64,000 nt of DNA from Desulfomicrobium macestii (GTDB lineage: Bacteria > Desulfobacterota > Desulfovibrionia > Desulfovibrionales > Desulfomicrobiaceae), in NCBI RefSeq assembly GCF_014873765.1, contig NZ_JADBGG010000003.1, positions 1 to 64,000 on the forward strand, in the 5' to 3' direction. The position numbers and the translations under genes are program-made. Positions 1 to 11,313 of this stretch are shown one piece after another. The notes beneath the pieces are model-generated. The model had not been told where the DNA came from. It ran no database searches and saw only the letters and a list, made by a program, of their open reading frames with translations. Position 1 is the stretch's first letter. Every line of letters begins with the position of its first letter.

Positions 1-66
1 GGCGACTCATAAACACGTAATCAGACGAGGTCGTCCGAGCGAAAATCTCTCACTTTTGCTGGATCT

Positions 67-105
67 ATTAGGGTGCCGATCGGTGGCTCCATTAGGGTGC
101 TGATC
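67..105. repeat. Two 15-bp direct repeats near the left edge
   Basis: The sequence ATTAGGGTGCCGATC occurs at 67-81 and again at 91-105 with one change (14 of 15 match), a period of 24 bp. A shorter related piece (CTAGGGTACA) follows at 111. The repeats lie just beyond the stop of the small zinc-ribbon gene. They may be binding sites belonging to the inserted element; nothing in the window shows what binds them. Confidence 0.5.
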
Positions 106-508
106 AACAACTAGGGTACACATAATCTGGGTTTTTGTAATTTGAATCACAGACAGAACAAATATACCCCCGATCAGAAGCTGTCATCGGGACAAGATTC
201 CCATCTTTCTTCCAGCATTTTGTACAATACGCAAGCCTGCTTACATCTTCTCGCATAAAAAATACGCCAATCTTACTGTCAAAATCAAGCCGATCATCTG
301 TTTCCTTGCGCTTGCGCAGTTCGGCAAGCTCTGTCCGCAGGTCAACTATTTCATGCTTAGCATCCAAAACAGTTTGACGAAGATCTAATATCTTCTCAAG
401 CAAATCACAAAGCTCTGAATTTTGTTTGATCTCCTGTACTTTCTTAAATGCTGCATGGGTGTCTTTTAGAACCTGCCCTCCGGCTGCCAACAATGCGAGA
501 TCAATCAC
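104..508 (-). CDS. Small coiled-coil protein with C-terminal zinc ribbon, function unknown
   Basis: This is a 134-residue cytoplasmic protein of unknown function. The middle (about residues 20-70) is a charged heptad-like helix, probably a coiled coil. The C-terminal third carries two CxxC pairs (CTKC and CSVC) typical of a zinc ribbon. The start is a GTG at 508, chosen because a good GGAGG lies 8 bases upstream. It reads away from the neighbouring serine recombinase and sits inside the region that interrupts comM, so it is probably cargo of that element. Proteins of this shape occur as accessory genes on islands; no specific function can be assigned. Confidence 0.6.
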   Translation of the reverse strand: MIDLALLAAGGQVLKDTHAAFKKVQEIKQNSELCDLLEKILDLRQTVLDAKHEIVDLRTELAELRKRKETDDRLDFDSKIGVFFMREDVSRLAYCTKCWKKDGNLVPMTASDRGYICSVCDSNYKNPDYVYPSC

Positions 509-1824: not shown

Positions 1825-2574
1825 TCACATACCACGGGAGGGAGCAACGGGAAGAGAGGGCCTTGGCGTGTGCTGGCTGGGCGTAAGAAAAGCCACGGGG
1901 CATTCACGCCTTAACATGAGCATGTTGTGCGAGCCTGCACAGGCGATCTCTATGGCCCGCTTGGCCCGCTCCTGGCCCTTGACCTCCGAGAAGTCCCGCC
2001 GGAACTGTTCCTGCTCGCCCCACAGCCCCGCAACGTCGCAGACCAAAGGAGCGGTATCCTCTTCGCCGAGCACGAAACGCACAACCTGAGCCAGGCTTCT
2101 GCACCCGTACACCGGCAAACCCTGCACCACGGCGGCCTCCCTGCCGTTGGCCTCGGGCACGATCATGCCCCGGGCACCGGCTTCGCGGGCCCGGAGTGCC
2201 AGGGGCAAGGCACCCGGCACGGGTTTGAGTTCCCCGGAAAGTGAAAGCTCTCCGGCCAGATAAAGGCCGGAGAGCTTTTCTCCGGGGATGACTTCGGCCC
2301 CGGCCAAAAGGCCAAGGGCCAGGGGGAGGTCGTAGCCCGAGCCCTCCTTGCGGATGTCGGCAGGGGCGATGTTCACCGTGATGCGGCTGGGCGGCAGCTT
2401 GAAGCCCGAATTCTTGAGCGCCGAAAAAACGCGCTCCTTGGCCTCGCGCACCGCGCCTTCGGCCAGCCCAACCATGATGAAGGCGGGCATGCCCGAACGC
2501 GCCAGGTCCACCTCTAGCTCGATGGAGAATCCGTCGATTCCCAGCAAGGCGGCGGTGGAGACCTTGGCGATCAT
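1825..2574 (-). pseudogene. comM: comM/yifB Mg-chelatase-like gene, 5' half only, broken by insertion
   Basis: The first 220 or so residues match the N-terminal LonC-like domain of ComM (YifB), a hexameric AAA+ helicase that extends strand exchange in natural transformation. The usual length is about 500 residues. Here the AAA+ Walker A, Walker B and C-terminal Mg-chelatase domains are missing. After GSHNMLM the frame runs 29 more residues through foreign DNA and stops at 1825. The start directly follows lepB (two bases after its stop), so it is the last gene of lepA-lepB-comM. The product lacks the ATPase and is almost certainly inactive. Confidence 0.88.
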
Positions 2575-3235: not shown

Positions 3236-5038
3236 CTATTCGTCCGACTGGAGGGCAGCCAGGAATGCTTCCTGCGGAATCTCCACGCTGCCCATGCGCT
3301 TCATGCGCTTTTTGCCTTCTTTCTGCTTTTCCAGGAGCTTGCGCTTTCTGGTAATGTCACCGCCGTAACATTTGGCCGTGACGTTCTTGCGCATGGGCGA
3401 AACCCGCTCACGCGCGATGATCTTGCTGCCCACGGCCGCCTGGATGATGATCTCGAACAGCTGGCGGTGGATGACCCGCTTGAGCTTCAGCGCCAGGGCG
3501 CGGCCCCGGTACGCCGCGTTGGAGCGGTGCACGATGACGGCCATGGCGTCCACGGGTTCGCTGTTGATGAGCACATCCAGCTTGACCAGATCGGCCACCC
3601 GGTAGTCAATGACCTCGTAGTCCAGGGAGGCGAAGCCCTTGGTCACCGACTTGAGGCGGTCGAAGAAGTCATAGACGATCTCCGAGAAGGGCAGCTCGTA
3701 GCTGATGACCACGCGGGTGGACGTCATGTAGCGCATGTCCTTCTGGATGCCGCGCTTCTCCTCGCAAAGGCCCAGCACGTTGCCGACATAATCGTTCGGG
3801 ACGTGAATCTCCATGCGGACAAAGGGTTCGGCAATGGACTGGATCTTCTCCTGCGGCGGCAGGTTGCTCGGATTGTCGATGTCAAAGGTCACGCCGTCAA
3901 TACGGGTCACTCGGTAGATGACCGAAGGAGCCGTGGCGATGAGCTTGGCCTGAAACTCGCGCTCAAGCCGTTCCTGGATGACCTCCATGTGCAGAAGCCC
4001 CAGAAACCCGCAACGGAACCCGAAACCGAGCGCCTGCGAGGTCTCGGGCTCGTAGTACAGGGCGGCGTCGTTGAGTTGCAGCTTCTCCAGCGCGGACTTC
4101 AGGGTGTCGTATTCCGCCGGCTCCACAGGATAGAGACCACAGAAAACCATGGGCTTGATGGTCTTGAATCCGGGGAAAGGGGAGGCTGTGGGATTGTCGG
4201 GGTCGGTGATGGTATCGCCGACCTGGGCATCTTTAAGCTCCTTGATGGCTCCGCACATGAAGCCGACCTCGCCCGCCGCGAGCTGTTTTATGTCCGTGGG
4301 CTCCGGCGAAAAAACGCCGAGCTTGGTGACCTCGAACTTCTTGCCCGTGGCGCACATCTGCACGCGCTGCCCGGTCTTGATCCGCCCTTCCAGAATCCTG
4401 AAAAGCACGACCACGCCCTGATACGAATCGTACCAGGAGTCGAAGATCAGGGCCTTGAGCGGCGCGTCAGTGTCGCCTTTCGGCGGTGGTACCCGTTCGA
4501 CAAGACGTTCGAGCAGGTCTTCCACGCCAAGCCCGGACTTGGCCGAAACCTTGATGATGTCGGTGCAATCGATGCCGATGACTTCCTCGATCTCCTCAGC
4601 CACCCGTTCGGGTTCGGCGCTGGGCAGATCGATCTTGTTCAGGACCGGCAGCACTTCGAGGTCATTGTCCAGGGCCATGTAGACGTTGGCCAGGGTCTGG
4701 GCTTCCACGCCCTGGGTGGCGTCGACAACCAGCAGCGCCCCGTCGCACGCGGCCAGACTGCGCGAAACCTCATAGGAAAAGTCGACATGACCGGGCGTGT
4801 CGATGAGATTGAGGATATAGTTGCGGCCATCTTTCGCCTTGTACGGAATGCGTACGCTCTGGGCCTTGATGGTGATGCCGCGCTCCTGTTCCAGCTCCAT
4901 GCGATCCAGATACTGATCCTTTTTCTGGCGATCGGAGATAAGCCCCGTCTTTTCCATAATCCGGTCGGCCAGGGTGGACTTTCCGTGATCTATGTGGGCT
5001 ATAATACTGAAATTTCTGATATTTTCTTGTGTAGCCAT
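3236..5038 (-). CDS. lepA: Elongation factor 4 (LepA), back-translocating GTPase
   Basis: A 600-residue translational GTPase that acts on stalled or mis-translocated ribosomes. The start at 5038 ([20 protein letters not shown]) is chosen over an upstream in-frame extension because LepA begins here and AGGA precedes it. The G1 motif [10 protein letters not shown]3 DTPGHVDF and G4 NKIDLP are intact, and the LepA-specific C-terminal domain ends in [16 protein letters not shown]. First gene of lepA-lepB-comM. The roughly 270-bp space to the divergent LytTR gene must hold its promoter. Confidence 0.97.
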
Positions 5039-5308
5039 ATGTCCTGTGTTGGGAGAGAGACTTGCGTTCGTTACGGGTAAAACGTTTATTGATATTTGAT
5101 TTTCTTTGGGATGTCCATTGAACGCAAGGAGGGACAAAATTCGGCGGAAAGAAACAAAAAGTAATAGATTCAATTGCTTAAAATATGGAGACACAAGCAA
5201 AAACAAGCCCGCTCCAAGGCCGGCATCGAAAGCGGGAACAGCGCTTGAGAACTTTTGAAATCAAGGATATATGATCGTTTTCCCACTACCTGCGACCAGG
5301 CTGGCGCC

Positions 5309-6166
5309 ATGTCCAAACTCAAAGCGTTGCTTCTTCACCCGGATCCCGAAGTCAGGTCTCAATTGCGAGACATGCTCTCTCCTGTCAAGGAGATTGCCGT
5401 GCTCGGGGAGGCCGTGTCCTCGTTCGAGGCCCTGGAGATGCTGGCTTTCATTCCCTACGATGTCTTTTTCATGGGCACCGATCTCCCGCATGGAGTCAGC
5501 GGCATGGAACTGGCCGCGCATCTGGCCCAGGGCGACGACCCGCCCGCGCTCATTTTTCTGGCCACGGAAGAGGATCAGGCCTTCACCGCCTTCGAACTCG
5601 GTGCCGCCGACTACCTGCTCTGGCCCGCCAACGCGAACCGCTTCGCGCGCTCCATCGAGCGCCTGCGCCCGCTGCTTCCGCGCAAGAAGGCATCGCCGCC
5701 GACCCAGCCCCTGCAGGCCCGTCAGCACATAAGTGAAGAGACCGTGCAATTGTCCATGGGCGACGACGAGGAAGAGGTCTTCGTCAACGCCCTGCGCCAG
5801 GCGTGGGACATGAGCCGGGAGCGCTCTCCGGAGATCGAGAAGCTGCCTGTCAATCAGGAAGGTCGCCACATCCTCATTCCCTACACGCAGATCGTGTATG
5901 TGGAAGCCTACGAGGACTACAGCTTCGTGCACACGGCCCAGGACCGCTTCCTGACATCTTACCGTCTCAAGAACCTGGAAGCGCGCCTGCGGCCACATCG
6001 CTTCTGCAGGGTGCACCGCAAGTATCTGGTCAATCTGGACATGGTCACGGAGATCGCATCCATGCCAGGCGGCAATTTCATGCTGCGCACGGCCGGGCGC
6101 AAGAAGATCGAGCTTCCGGTCAGCAGGCGGCGCATCGGTGAACTGAAGAAAATTTTGCAGCTCTAG
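5309..6166 (+). CDS. LytTR regulator with degenerate pseudo-receiver domain
   Basis: A 285-residue DNA-binding regulator. Residues about 1-120 align along the whole length of a CheY-like receiver, but the phosphorylation residues are all replaced: HP at 10-11 for the acidic pair, G56 for the phospho-acceptor Asp, A85 for the Thr/Ser, and W105 for the Lys. Residues about 190-285 form a clear LytTR domain (YTQIVYVEAYEDYSFVHT, then FCRVHRKYLVN). The start at 5309 is preferred because receiver homology begins there; an upstream in-frame TTG at 5255 is less likely. No histidine kinase is adjacent. It probably acts without phosphorylation or responds to another signal. Confidence 0.85.
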   Translation: MSKLKALLLHPDPEVRSQLRDMLSPVKEIAVLGEAVSSFEALEMLAFIPYDVFFMGTDLPHGVSGMELAAHLAQGDDPPALIFLATEEDQAFTAFELGAADYLLWPANANRFARSIERLRPLLPRKKASPPTQPLQARQHISEETVQLSMGDDEEEVFVNALRQAWDMSRERSPEIEKLPVNQEGRHILIPYTQIVYVEAYEDYSFVHTAQDRFLTSYRLKNLEARLRPHRFCRVHRKYLVNLDMVTEIASMPGGNFMLRTAGRKKIELPVSRRRIGELKKILQL

Positions 6167-6289
6167 CGGCGCTTACCTGCCCCAAAAGGCCACTAGCCGA
6201 GAATGGGCTTTCCCCGAATACTAAAACGAGTACACAATATGGAACGACGCACCGGCATGAAACGCGGCCTGCCGCGCAAGGAGAACGCC

Positions 6290-8203
6290 ATGAAAGAAAC
6301 CGACATGGCCTATGGCGAAGAACTCGTCTTCCGCCCCCTGCCCCAACTGGTCATCGAGGCCAATGTCAATCCGCAGGAATTTGCCACGGCCCAGGCATCG
6401 GCCAAGGCCGACAACCTGGGGTATTGGGAAGACGCGGCCCAGGAGCTGGACTGGTTCAACAAGTGGGATGTGGTTATGGATGACTCCGAGGCCCCTCGCT
6501 ACCAGTGGTTCAAGGGCGCCCAGTGCAACATCGTGTACAACGCCCTCGACCGGCACATCGCCACGGCCAACAAGAACAAGCTGGCCCTGATCTGGGAAGG
6601 CGAGGCCGGGGACACAAAAAAATACACCTATTATGAACTCTACCGCGAGGTGAACAAGCTGGCCAACGCCATGCGTTCACTGGGCCTTGGCAAGGGCGAT
6701 CGGGTGGTGCTCTACATGCCGCTCATCCCCCAGACCATGATGGCCATGCTCGCCTGCGCCAAGATCGGGGCCGTGCATTGCGCGGTCTTCGCCGGCTTTT
6801 CGGCCAAGGCCCTGCGCCAGCGCATCACCGAGGTCGAGGCCAAGCTGGTCGTCACGGCCGACGGGTTCTACCGCAACGGGCGCATCGTCAACCTCAAAGC
6901 CACCGTGGACGAGGCGCTGGTGGGCGGGTGCGACTGCGTGGAGACCGTGGTCGTGGTCAACCGCGCCAAGCTGGACGTGGACATGGGCGAGGCCCGCGAC
7001 ATCTGGTACGACGCCCTGGTCCGCCAGGAGCGCTCCGACGCGGCCACGGAGATCATGAACTCCGATGATCCGCTCTTCATCCTGCACACCTCCGGGACCA
7101 CGGGTGAGCCCAAGGGCATCGTGCACGGCCACGCCGGATACATGGTCGGACTGCACCGCTCGCTGGACTGGGTCTTCGACATCAAGCCCACGGACATCTT
7201 CTGGTGCACCGGCGACATGGGCTGGATCACCGGCCACAGCTACGTGGTCTATGGCCCGCTCATCGCCGGGACGACCACGGTCATGTACGAAGGGCACCCC
7301 CTCTATCCCCAGGCCGACCGCATGTGGGACATCGTGGCCCGTTACGGCGTGACCATCCTGTACACCGCGCCCACGGTCATCCGCATGCTCATGCGCTACG
7401 GCAACCAGTATCCGCGCATGCACGACCTCTCGACCCTGCGCCTCCTGGCCAGCGTGGGCGAACCCATTTCACCCGACACGTGGCTCTGGTTCTACAAATT
7501 CATCGGCCACTCCCAATGCCCCATCCTCGACACCTGGTGGCAGACCGAAACCGGCGGATGCATGATCAGCCCCTTTCCGGTCTCGGTCCTGAAACCGGGC
7601 TCCGTGCACCGCCCCATGCCCGGCATAGAGGTGGACATCGTCGATGAGGACGGCAATCCCGTGGAAGCCGGAGTCGCGGGCAATCTCATCGTGACCAAAC
7701 CCTGGCCGTCCATGCTGCTTGATATTTTCGGCAAGCCCGAACTCCGCGACGCGACCTACTGGCCCCTGGGTCCCGGCAAATACTGGGCGGGCGATATCGC
7801 CACCCGCGACGAAGACGGCCTGATCTGGATCCACGGCCGCTCCGACGACGTCATGAACATAGCCGGGCACCGCATCGGCAACGTCGAACTCGAAAACGCC
7901 TTCCTGACCCACAAGGCCGTGGCCGATGCGGCCGTGATCGGCATCCCGGACAAGATCAAGGGGGAGGTGGCCAAGGCCTACATCGTGCTGCAGGCGGAAT
8001 TCGCGGCCCTGGACGACCGCAACGAGATCATCCGCATGCTCAAGACCCATATCCGCAAGGAAGTGGGTCCCGTGGCCGTGATCCGGTCCATGGAATTCGT
8101 GGAGACCCTGCCCCGGACCAGCAGCGGCAAGATCGTGCGCCGGGTCTTGAAGGCCAGGGAGGCCGGGGTTCAGGTAGATCTGGCGGCAGTCGTGGAAGAC
8201 TAG
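6290..8203 (+). CDS. acs: Acetyl-CoA synthetase, AMP-forming
   Basis: A 637-residue cytoplasmic enzyme that activates acetate (or a close short acid) with ATP and CoA through an acyl-adenylate. Visible motifs are the adenylate loop [10 protein letters not shown], the TWWQTETGG segment whose Trp limits the pocket to acetate or propionate in known enzymes, and the hinge [14 protein letters not shown]. The C-terminal [10 protein letters not shown] contains the adenylation lysine, a site of acetyl regulation in known Acs. The ATG at 6290 is chosen because AAGGAG lies 6 bases upstream; in-frame ATGs from 6203 lack this. A second acyl-CoA synthetase, ADP-forming, lies close by on the other strand. 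Confidence 0.93.
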
Positions 8204-8218
8204 GCCGCACAGAAGGTC

Positions 8219-8905
8219 ATGGTCGAAGCGCTCATTCCAAAGCACGGCGGGTAGCGAAGCCTCAAAAGTTTTCAGGTAGCGCTACTGGCCTACGACGTGA
8301 CAGTGCTATTCTGTGAAAAATTCGTGGCCAAACGCAGCCGCACCCACGACCAGATGGTCCAGGCCGCACGCTCCGGCGTCCAGAACATCGCCGAAGGCAG
8401 CCAGGCATCGGGCACGTCGAAAAAGATGGAGCTCAAGCTCACCAACGTGGCCCGTGCCAGCCTGGAAGAGTTGCGCCTGGACTATGAAGATTTCCTGCGC
8501 CAGCGCGGTTTGCCACTGCTGGAACCTGAGCATCCGGCGCTGAAGCGATTCAAAGAGAAGCGCTGCGCGAAGCTGGATGATGTTCGGCGGTGGGTGAAAG
8601 AAGAAACAGAAAGACAGAAAGCGGTGGGCGAACACGGACTTTCAAGGCTCCCCACGGACAAAGCACAAAACATCCAGTCAGGTCCGGGGTCCGTGCCCGT
8701 CCGTGTCAGTCAGTGCCAGTCCACCACACCCTTCAGCCCTCTTTCCCCCGAAACCCTGGCCGCCAACGCCGCCCTTTCCCTCCTGAACCTGGCCTGCCAT
8801 CTCCTGGATCGACAGCTTGCTGCCCAGGCTAAGGCCTTTATTCAAGAGGGCGGCTTCACCGAGCGGTTGCACCGCGTCCGATCACGGCAGCGCAGTTCCA
8901 AATAA
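8219..8905 (+). pseudogene. Four-helix-bundle protein gene with in-frame amber codon near the start
   Basis: From ATG 8219 the frame reads MVEALIPKHGG, then TAG at 8252-8254, then RSLKSFQVALLAYDVTVLF and an intact body to 8905. The body matches the four-helix-bundle (S23/IVP-like) family with DQMVQAARSGVQNIAEGSQ and a C-terminal suffix ending GGFTERLHRVRS. Family members continue through the stop position, usually with Tyr as HGGYR, so TAC or TAT seems to have become TAG. A GTG at 8297 could restart translation but has no Shine-Dalgarno and would lose part of helix 1. Probably a recent pseudogene, or a nonsense suppression case. It follows acs by 15 bases. Confidence 0.7.
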
Positions 8906-8910
8906 CAAAC

Positions 8911-11313
8911 CTACCCCAACCCGCCCCTTAGCAGATCGGCATAAAGCCGAGCCTGAATATATTGGGCCAAGGCGGACACCGCGCGGTCGCAGACCGGGAA
9001 AACAGGCACGCCCTCGGCCATGAGCACGTCTCGCAAGGGATCATAAAGGCGGCCGCCGTCGATGACGCCGATAATCGGCTTGTCGCTCTGCCGGACCACT
9101 TCCGGCAGCAAGCGTGCAATGCTGCCTTCGGCGTGCAGGTCAAAAGCCGCGACATCGGTATCGGCCAGCGTGTGCATGGCCGGGGAAAGCGGGTCCAGAC
9201 CCAGAACCACGGCGTCCACACCAGTATCGGCGGCCAGGATGGCGGCAATGCGGGCGTGGGCGTCATCGTCGGCGGCGGGGTTGATGTCCAGCGGGTTGAC
9301 GATGCTGACCAGTGCGTCCAGCCGCTTCTCCCGCAACACCCCGGCGATCTCCTCCACGCTTTCCGGGGCGAATGGCGCAAGCTGCATGGAATAATCGTCG
9401 CTCTGGATGGAATCTGCCATGCCCACCGCCTCGAATCCCGCGCCGCTCACGGCCGCCAGCCGATTGCCCCGGATCTTCTTGCCGTTCAGGGTTTCAGCCA
9501 GCAGAAAAAGATCCTGAAACTGGTTGAAATTCTGGGCCACGATGGCTCCGGCCTGACGCACGCAGCTCTCGCAGACCATGAAGTCCCCGGCCAGTGAAGC
9601 GGTGTGCCCGCTGGTGGCGGACTTGCCTTCGGGTGTACGGCCCGCCTTGTAGAAGACCACCTCCTTGCCTGCCATGACCGCCTCACGCACGGCCCGGCAA
9701 AAAGCCAGTCCGTCAAGATCGCTGAAGCCTTCGGCATAGACCGCGATGACATCCACCTGATCCGAATCCTTGAAATAGCTGACCATGTCGCCAAGGGTCA
9801 GATCGGTCTGGTTCCCCATTGAAATCATGTAGGCTGGCACCAGTTCCGGGCACTGACTGCTGCGGTGCAGCATGAAGGCTCCGCTCTGACTGACCAGGGC
9901 CGCGCGGCGGTAGGGCTTGCCCCGGTCGCGGGGCAGCTTCTCCTCGGGGATGAACCAGGTGTCGTAGCGCCCGGGGCGGGAGACCACGCCCATGCAGTTG
10001 GCTCCGAGGAAAATCGGCCCGCCGTCGCCTTCCCCGTGGGCCTGATTGATCCGCGCCACCACCTGCGCGGCCCGCTCGCGGCTGTCCTCGGTCTCACCCA
10101 TGCCGCCGGGAATGAGCATGACCGCGTGGGCCGCGTCCCTGCTGATGATTTCCTCCACCAGATCAGGCACCTGAGCCGCGCCGACGGCCACGACCAAAAG
10201 ATCGAGCTTGTGCGGCAGCGCGGCCAGATCAGGCACGCACCGCACCCCGCTCTGATCCGGGACACCTTCGCGCAGGATGGTCACGTTTTCCGGGGCAAAG
10301 CCCTGGGCCAGGATGTTTTCCACAATGATGCGCCCGAAATTTCTGCGCGAAGACGAAACCCCGACAATGCCGATACGCTCCGGGTGTAGCAGCTTGTGGA
10401 TTTTGCCCACCGGCCGACATGCGGGTTGCGACTCGGGCAGGGAAAAACGACACATGCCGTCCAAGGGTACCATCAGATAATCGGTGAAGGCGAAGGGATT
10501 GACCTCCAGTTCCTCGATGATGAAGGGCGCGTCCGGATTGTCCGGCGAATAAAAATTGGCCATGGCCACGAAACTTTCAAAGCACTCGATGAGCTGCTCG
10601 TCAGTGACGATGCGGCGCTGTCCCCGGGTCAGCCCGGCCAGTTTCTTGTAGGAGATGGTCTGGCGGAAAAGTTCGAAAAATGTCTGTCCATCGGTCATGG
10701 CCGTGGACGCCGCCACAATGGCCTGCCCCTTGCGAAAGCGTTGGGCGTAAAGCTCGGTGTCGGTCCCGCCGAGCCCGGCGCTTAAAACCATGCCGAACTC
10801 CCGCGTCCGCCGCAGGCCCACGATGAGCTCATGGCCAAAGGTGTCAGAGTCGGGAGGCATAAACTGCACCTGCAGCACACCCTTCAAATCCCGGCTGATG
10901 GCGGCAACCAGAGCCTGCCCGCCAAGTCCCCGGTAGGAGGGCGGCGCGGCGTCAGGATTGCGCCCGATCCAGGCTGCATAGTTCTCGGGCACCTCATAGA
11001 GCATGCGCCGCTGAGCCGACCGAACCCCCTGCGCCGTCTTACCCACAATCCGCACCCCGCCGACCTCGGTCTTGTGCACGATGGTCGGAGAAACGATCTT
11101 GAGCACCGCCTTCTCCCCGGGAATGGCCATCAACTCCTCATCCGAAACCCGCGCCCCACGGACAAGCAAATGGGCCCGAGGAGGAGTCTCGGCGCCGGAT
11201 TTGGAGAGAAGGGAATAGACTTCGTATTCGTAAAGGAAGTTTCGGGATTCGGCGTGGGCGTGCTGAAACAGGGCCGTGATGGCCTTAAAGTCGATATAGT
11301 CGGGTGATTTCAC
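8911..11313 (-). CDS. ADP-forming acyl-CoA synthetase, fused with the ATP-grasp subunit first
   Basis: An 800-residue single-chain NDP-forming acyl-CoA synthetase (acetate-CoA ligase type), which makes ATP from acyl-CoA or activates acids reversibly. Residues about 10-290 are the ATP-grasp (beta) part with AVLKIVSPTIVHKTEVGGV. About 310-440 is the CoA-binding Rossmann part (IGIVGVSSSRRNFG), and the rest is the succinyl-CoA-ligase-like part with SATSGHTASLAG, whose His is expected to be phosphorylated. The order beta then alpha is the reverse of many fused enzymes. It converges on the broken four-helix-bundle gene with only 5 bases between stops. Substrate not determinable. Confidence 0.85.
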   Translation of the reverse strand: MKSPDYIDFKAITALFQHAHAESRNFLYEYEVYSLLSKSGAETPPRAHLLVRGARVSDEELMAIPGEKAVLKIVSPTIVHKTEVGGVRIVGKTAQGVRSAQRRMLYEVPENYAAWIGRNPDAAPPSYRGLGGQALVAAISRDLKGVLQVQFMPPDSDTFGHELIVGLRRTREFGMVLSAGLGGTDTELYAQRFRKGQAIVAASTAMTDGQTFFELFRQTISYKKLAGLTRGQRRIVTDEQLIECFESFVAMANFYSPDNPDAPFIIEELEVNPFAFTDYLMVPLDGMCRFSLPESQPACRPVGKIHKLLHPERIGIVGVSSSRRNFGRIIVENILAQGFAPENVTILREGVPDQSGVRCVPDLAALPHKLDLLVVAVGAAQVPDLVEEIISRDAAHAVMLIPGGMGETEDSRERAAQVVARINQAHGEGDGGPIFLGANCMGVVSRPGRYDTWFIPEEKLPRDRGKPYRRAALVSQSGAFMLHRSSQCPELVPAYMISMGNQTDLTLGDMVSYFKDSDQVDVIAVYAEGFSDLDGLAFCRAVREAVMAGKEVVFYKAGRTPEGKSATSGHTASLAGDFMVCESCVRQAGAIVAQNFNQFQDLFLLAETLNGKKIRGNRLAAVSGAGFEAVGMADSIQSDDYSMQLAPFAPESVEEIAGVLREKRLDALVSIVNPLDINPAADDDAHARIAAILAADTGVDAVVLGLDPLSPAMHTLADTDVAAFDLHAEGSIARLLPEVVRQSDKPIIGVIDGGRLYDPLRDVLMAEGVPVFPVCDRAVSALAQYIQARLYADLLRGGLG

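Follow-up and report, generated by a model that had tools for sequence, protein, structure and literature searches.

Homologues of the magnesium chelatase/ATP-dependent protease ComM/YifB are a known favourite landing site for large serine recombinases (LSRs), being the target of 12.4% of the predicted site-specific LSRs according to Durrant et al. (2022; PMC10083194). Most phage WO sr1 recombinases likewise integrate in the magnesium chelatase gene (PMC9203015), and the same gene is broken by the AbaR/Tn6022-type islands of Acinetobacter baumannii, where Tn7-like transposition leaves a 5-bp duplication, accgc (PMC11472951, PMC3691203), and whose counterparts in the order Desulfovibrionales are located at codon 288 in G215, G291 and G310. 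The DNA analysed here (the window, 64,000 nucleotides) covers bases 1 to 64,000 of the 240,990-bp contig C3 in the 99-contig draft genome of Desulfomicrobium macestii (G000), and its comM adds a new host and a new element to this list. As in the LSR elements of Durrant et al., an LSR appears to have integrated inside this gene, a likeness that holds at the level of the gene, and the present host and element are an additional case (PMC10083194). As in Wolbachia phage WO sr1WO, a serine recombinase is present and parts of the target gene flank the insert; phage WO is a full prophage in an endosymbiont, whereas the present element has a size of some 7 kb, and structural phage genes were not noticed in its sequenced parts (PMC9203015). 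With attP, attB, an empty site and an intact sister copy at hand, the locus provides a well-resolved case for the pattern of mobile elements in comM.

Table 1. Positions of the features of the broken comM and its inserted element in the window, and codons of the comM breaks detected in genomes of the class
Feature	Position	Strand	Evidence or genomes
One end of the integrated element; remainder on contigs C74 and C13	1..1918		Absent from G002; partly shared with the G006 element end
Insertion-sequence end	1..109		Nearly identical 94-95 bp at the ends of contigs C38, C6, C41 and C15
Small serine recombinase, resolvase/invertase size, 227 aa	844..1527	+	PF00239; phrog_125, phrog_95; 90% identical copy in G006
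Element-coded tail, adding about 28 residues to the broken comM frame before a stop	1825..1918	-	ORF 1825..2574
comM 5' part, start codon to recombination core	1919..2574	-	Pfam; similarity to G002 comM ends at 1919
11-bp recombination core, CACAACATGCT in comM sense	1919..1929	-	Identical at both junctions; centre of attP inverted repeat
Presumed crossover dinucleotide CT	1919-1920	-	Centre of attP inverted repeat
comM break	codon ~34		G064
comM break	codon ~200		G175
comM break	codon 218		G000, G006, G090, G225
comM break	codon 288		G215, G291, G310
comM break, around NPCPCG motif	codon ~345-372		G293, G313, G283, G317, G318, G325, G328, G198, G195, G081, G225

An earlier note on this DNA had proposed that comM is cut by a mobile element just before the Walker A codons, at a stretch constrained by that motif, and both points are borne out. 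The ORF at 2574..1825 (minus strand) encodes a complete ChlI domain (PF13541), with the Mg_chelatase domain (PF01078) represented by positions 1-28 of 207 only, so that the 5' part of comM carries no Walker A motif and breaks off just ahead of its codons, immediately downstream of those for His-Asn-Met-Leu. DNA similarity to the intact comM of G002 (L082), a member of the same genus, extends from base 1919 rightwards, with none beyond, which gives a comM part of approximately 219-220 codons; the frame that had been read as intact through GSHNMLM is thus comM as far as GSHNML, the final M being encoded by the insert. The ATPase half, which had been taken as gone, is absent from the window and was located at C13:2115-3005 (ComM residues 216-511), near the start of a 105-kb contig of the same genome, in the same sense and past the element, which answers the concern that there might be no 3' half anywhere. 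When the two flanks were joined in a script, one open comM frame of 511 codons was obtained, with GSHNMLFIGPPGSGK spanning the joint. In G002 the comM site is uninterrupted, with one flank collinear to C3 and the other to C13. An intact comM copy was sought in the window's genome and not found. To judge from the sequence, comM now consists of two fragments, an N-terminal one with ChlI and an ATPase one lacking a start. The bulk of the element had been placed to the left of the window; the remainder does lie beyond the window, on C74 and C13, with nothing to its left on the contig, since the window begins at C3 base 1.

The two comM junctions have exactly 11 bp in common (Table 1), and the same two junctions are present in G006, of the same genus. 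The attP reconstructed from them is an imperfect inverted repeat centred on CT, which lies at the edge of the core, matching at 17 of 24 positions in both G000 and G006 and at 19 of 24 in G090; among 20,000 shuffles, the symmetry scores were reached in 0, 1 and 0 cases for G000, G006 and G090, respectively. The attB examined in the same manner was not significantly palindromic. The short core repeated identically at the two junctions, the empty site of the relative G002 and the inverted-repeat arms of attP flanking a central dinucleotide are all LSR-type features, and such attachment-site anatomy is expected of recombination by serine integrases and not of Tn7. Comparison with a relative, as the earlier note had suggested, indeed fixed the empty site; what the junctions share is the 11-bp core and not a Tn7-type target duplication.

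On C13, a 158-aa ORF (PF00239) directly adjoining the 3' half of comM encodes the N-terminal portion of a large serine recombinase. In the window's genome this LSR gene is interrupted by an IS21-type istA/istB pair, a C-terminal piece corresponding to G006 residues 378-653 is found on the 4-kb contig C74, and the middle (residues 153-377 of the G006 protein) was sought in the genome and not found. The G006 LSR is whole, with 653 aa comprising Resolvase, Recombinase and zinc-ribbon domains, and adjoins comM at the same base; the integrase gene therefore stands beside the attachment site in both genomes, its start abutting the comM 3' half, and all three LSR domains are seen in the intact G006 copy, the window-genome copy being broken and incomplete. 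At the other end of the G006 element a small resolvase, 90% identical to the window's copy, was observed. G006 carries the same element, whose length, pieced together from both genomes and leaving IS copies aside, is put at about 6.8 kb, an estimate that rests on homology with contig C74 because no overlap joins the G006 contig ends. A complete element of 6.76 kb lies between the comM halves of G090, at the same codons and with the core CACAACCTGCT; identity between the LSRs of G090 and G006 is only about 35%.

In the window's genome the element is known in pieces on several draft contigs (C3, C74 and C13), and the insertion sequence at the beginning of the window recurs at many contig ends, where the assembly is broken. 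The cargo is phage-flavoured, G000 encoding a Rha/ANT antirepressor and G006 both a Bro-N protein and a peptidase of IrrE-like type. No tni or tns genes were seen in the ORFs of C3, C13 and C74, on which the element is only partly assembled. A serine recombinase had been pointed out near the break, which is correct (the 227-aa protein at 844-1527), and repeats had been reported beside it, which exist and are of minor note, namely two 22-bp near-repeats at 60-105, inside the IS end, and two perfect 14-bp tandem copies at 1547-1574. The element end also contains an ORF of 134 aa (104-508, minus strand) that matches phrog_1244, of unknown function; a Pfam match was sought for it and none was obtained.

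These observations indicate that a small phage-like element almost certainly integrated site-specifically into comM through its LSR, by recombination of attP with attB at the CT within the 11-bp core. The His-Asn-Met-Leu codons of comM, just ahead of Walker A, would have served as attB, the LSR encoded against the comM 3' half on C13 would have recombined it with attP, and strand exchange at the CT in the core common to both would have yielded attL and attR; an IS21 copy would have entered the LSR gene of the window's genome later. Integration by an LSR rests here on sequence evidence of several kinds, namely the split gene, the core, the empty site, the position of the LSR, the palindromic attP and the occurrence of the same element in G006, from which we also infer catalysis by this particular LSR. 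With the LSR gene cut by IS21 and incompletely represented in the assembly, self-excision was probably lost, leaving the element stranded and probably immobile in the window's genome. The truncated ComM retains ChlI and lacks Walker A, so its helicase activity is very probably lost. Homologues of comEC type and of dprA are present in the window's genome, which makes a role of ComM in transformation possible, both families matching most control genomes as well, E. coli included. We hypothesize, drawing on the literature, that the element may gain from lowered transformation.

The earlier note had attributed the break to a Tn7-like transposon of the AbaR/Tn6022 type, a reading in favour of which stand Acinetobacter comM as a known target of such elements (PMC11472951, PMC3691203) and three genomes of the same order in which Tn7-like elements occupy comM. 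The junction anatomy speaks strongly against it and it was rejected on that basis: the element ends are not of the TGTGA...ACA type, the junctions share the 11-bp core with no 5-bp duplication, and an LSR adjoins the junction of the element, whereas the Tn7-like insertions of the order are situated at codon 288 and not 218, which leaves a Tn7-like origin very improbable. The convergent use of one site that had been envisaged holds only in a weaker sense, insofar as Tn7-like elements do cut comM in those three relatives, but they do so about 70 codons downstream.

Integration by the small serine recombinase at 844-1527 instead of the LSR is comparably improbable. The small recombinase does belong to the element, being conserved along with it in G006, but it is of resolvase size and sits 1.1-1.8 kb off the window junction (844-1527 against 1919), while the other junction is immediately followed by the start of the LSR. 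Relatives of the LSR in other genomes are also found beside comM at this site, with close relatives of the small recombinase seen in only 6 of 160 loci; the small recombinase is a part of the element and probably not its integrase. A misassembly or contig-end artefact, by which an intact comM would only look broken, could be imagined for a 99-contig draft in which C3 and C13 both end in IS sequences. The break, however, lies at a distance from the contig ends, 1.9 kb into C3 and 2.1 kb into C13, G006 has the same two junctions, and the window's genome yielded no whole comM, making such an artefact the least credible of the alternatives to LSR integration, with hardly any probability left to it. 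Several LSR elements of the same order likewise carry, besides the LSR, a small serine recombinase of resolvase size: L068 (G210, 7558-10231), L069 (G225, 4995-8036) and L070 (G064, 5419-8281).

Beyond the class, the best 80 LSR relatives in named genomes were sampled with fetched flanks of up to 4 kb, one of them (L121) being the same contig as G225. A comM fragment was present in the fetched stretch of 52 of these 80, and within 300 bp of the LSR match in 46, with 44 at the same site and 2 at codon 34-35. The hosts include Alpha-, Beta- and Gammaproteobacteria, Thermodesulfobacteriota and a Myxococcota bin, as well as Gemmatimonadota, in which the comM fragment is further from the LSR. In 33 3' junctions aligned on the GPPG codons, divergence starts around the same CAC-AAY-NTG-CT stretch. 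One broad LSR family thus reuses the pre-Walker A codons as its attB in several phyla. A single LSR clade for the users of this site was rejected on a quick tree (20 label changes versus 29.2 on shuffled labels); site use is clustered yet scattered over the LSR tree, which is limited by long branches and open forks.

Within the class, 303 of 348 genomes yielded a comM, which by our count is clearly split in at least 19 of these 303, the break positions being listed in Table 1. LSR genes flank the breaks at codons 34 and 218; near codon 355 several breaks are flanked in this way too, some of the matches being weak (E 1e-6 to 1e-13). The codon-288 breaks display TnsA, a TniA-like transposase, TniB, TGTGA...ACA ends and 5-bp duplications, the element domains having been scanned in G310, with G215 and G291 assigned by resemblance. 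Split comM genes at several sites and through at least two unrelated machineries in one class are suited to a comparative test of whether mobile elements gain by breaking transformation genes. Tentatively, and with somewhat less confidence than doubt, we suggest that comM of the Desulfovibrionales may have been broken repeatedly and independently, by serine integrases at about codons 34, 218 and 355 and by Tn7-like elements with defence-type cargo at 288, possibly since loss of ComM spares elements from removal by transformation with heterologous DNA.

The codon-288 elements (L095/L096 in G215, L102/L103 in G291 and L104/L105 in G310) span 20-24 kb with duplications of GCGGG or GGGGG, which, read on the opposite strand, resemble the accgc described for the AbaR islands of A. 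baumannii; their cargo includes a CBASS-type cyclase and a phospholipase in G310 and a JetD-like gene in G291. In G225 (L097, L098 and L099) comM is apparently cut twice, at codon 218 and near codon 355. In G293 (L107 and L074) a single contig carries the two comM halves on opposite strands with about 1.9 Mb between them, suggesting that the chromosome was rearranged through the insertion or after it.
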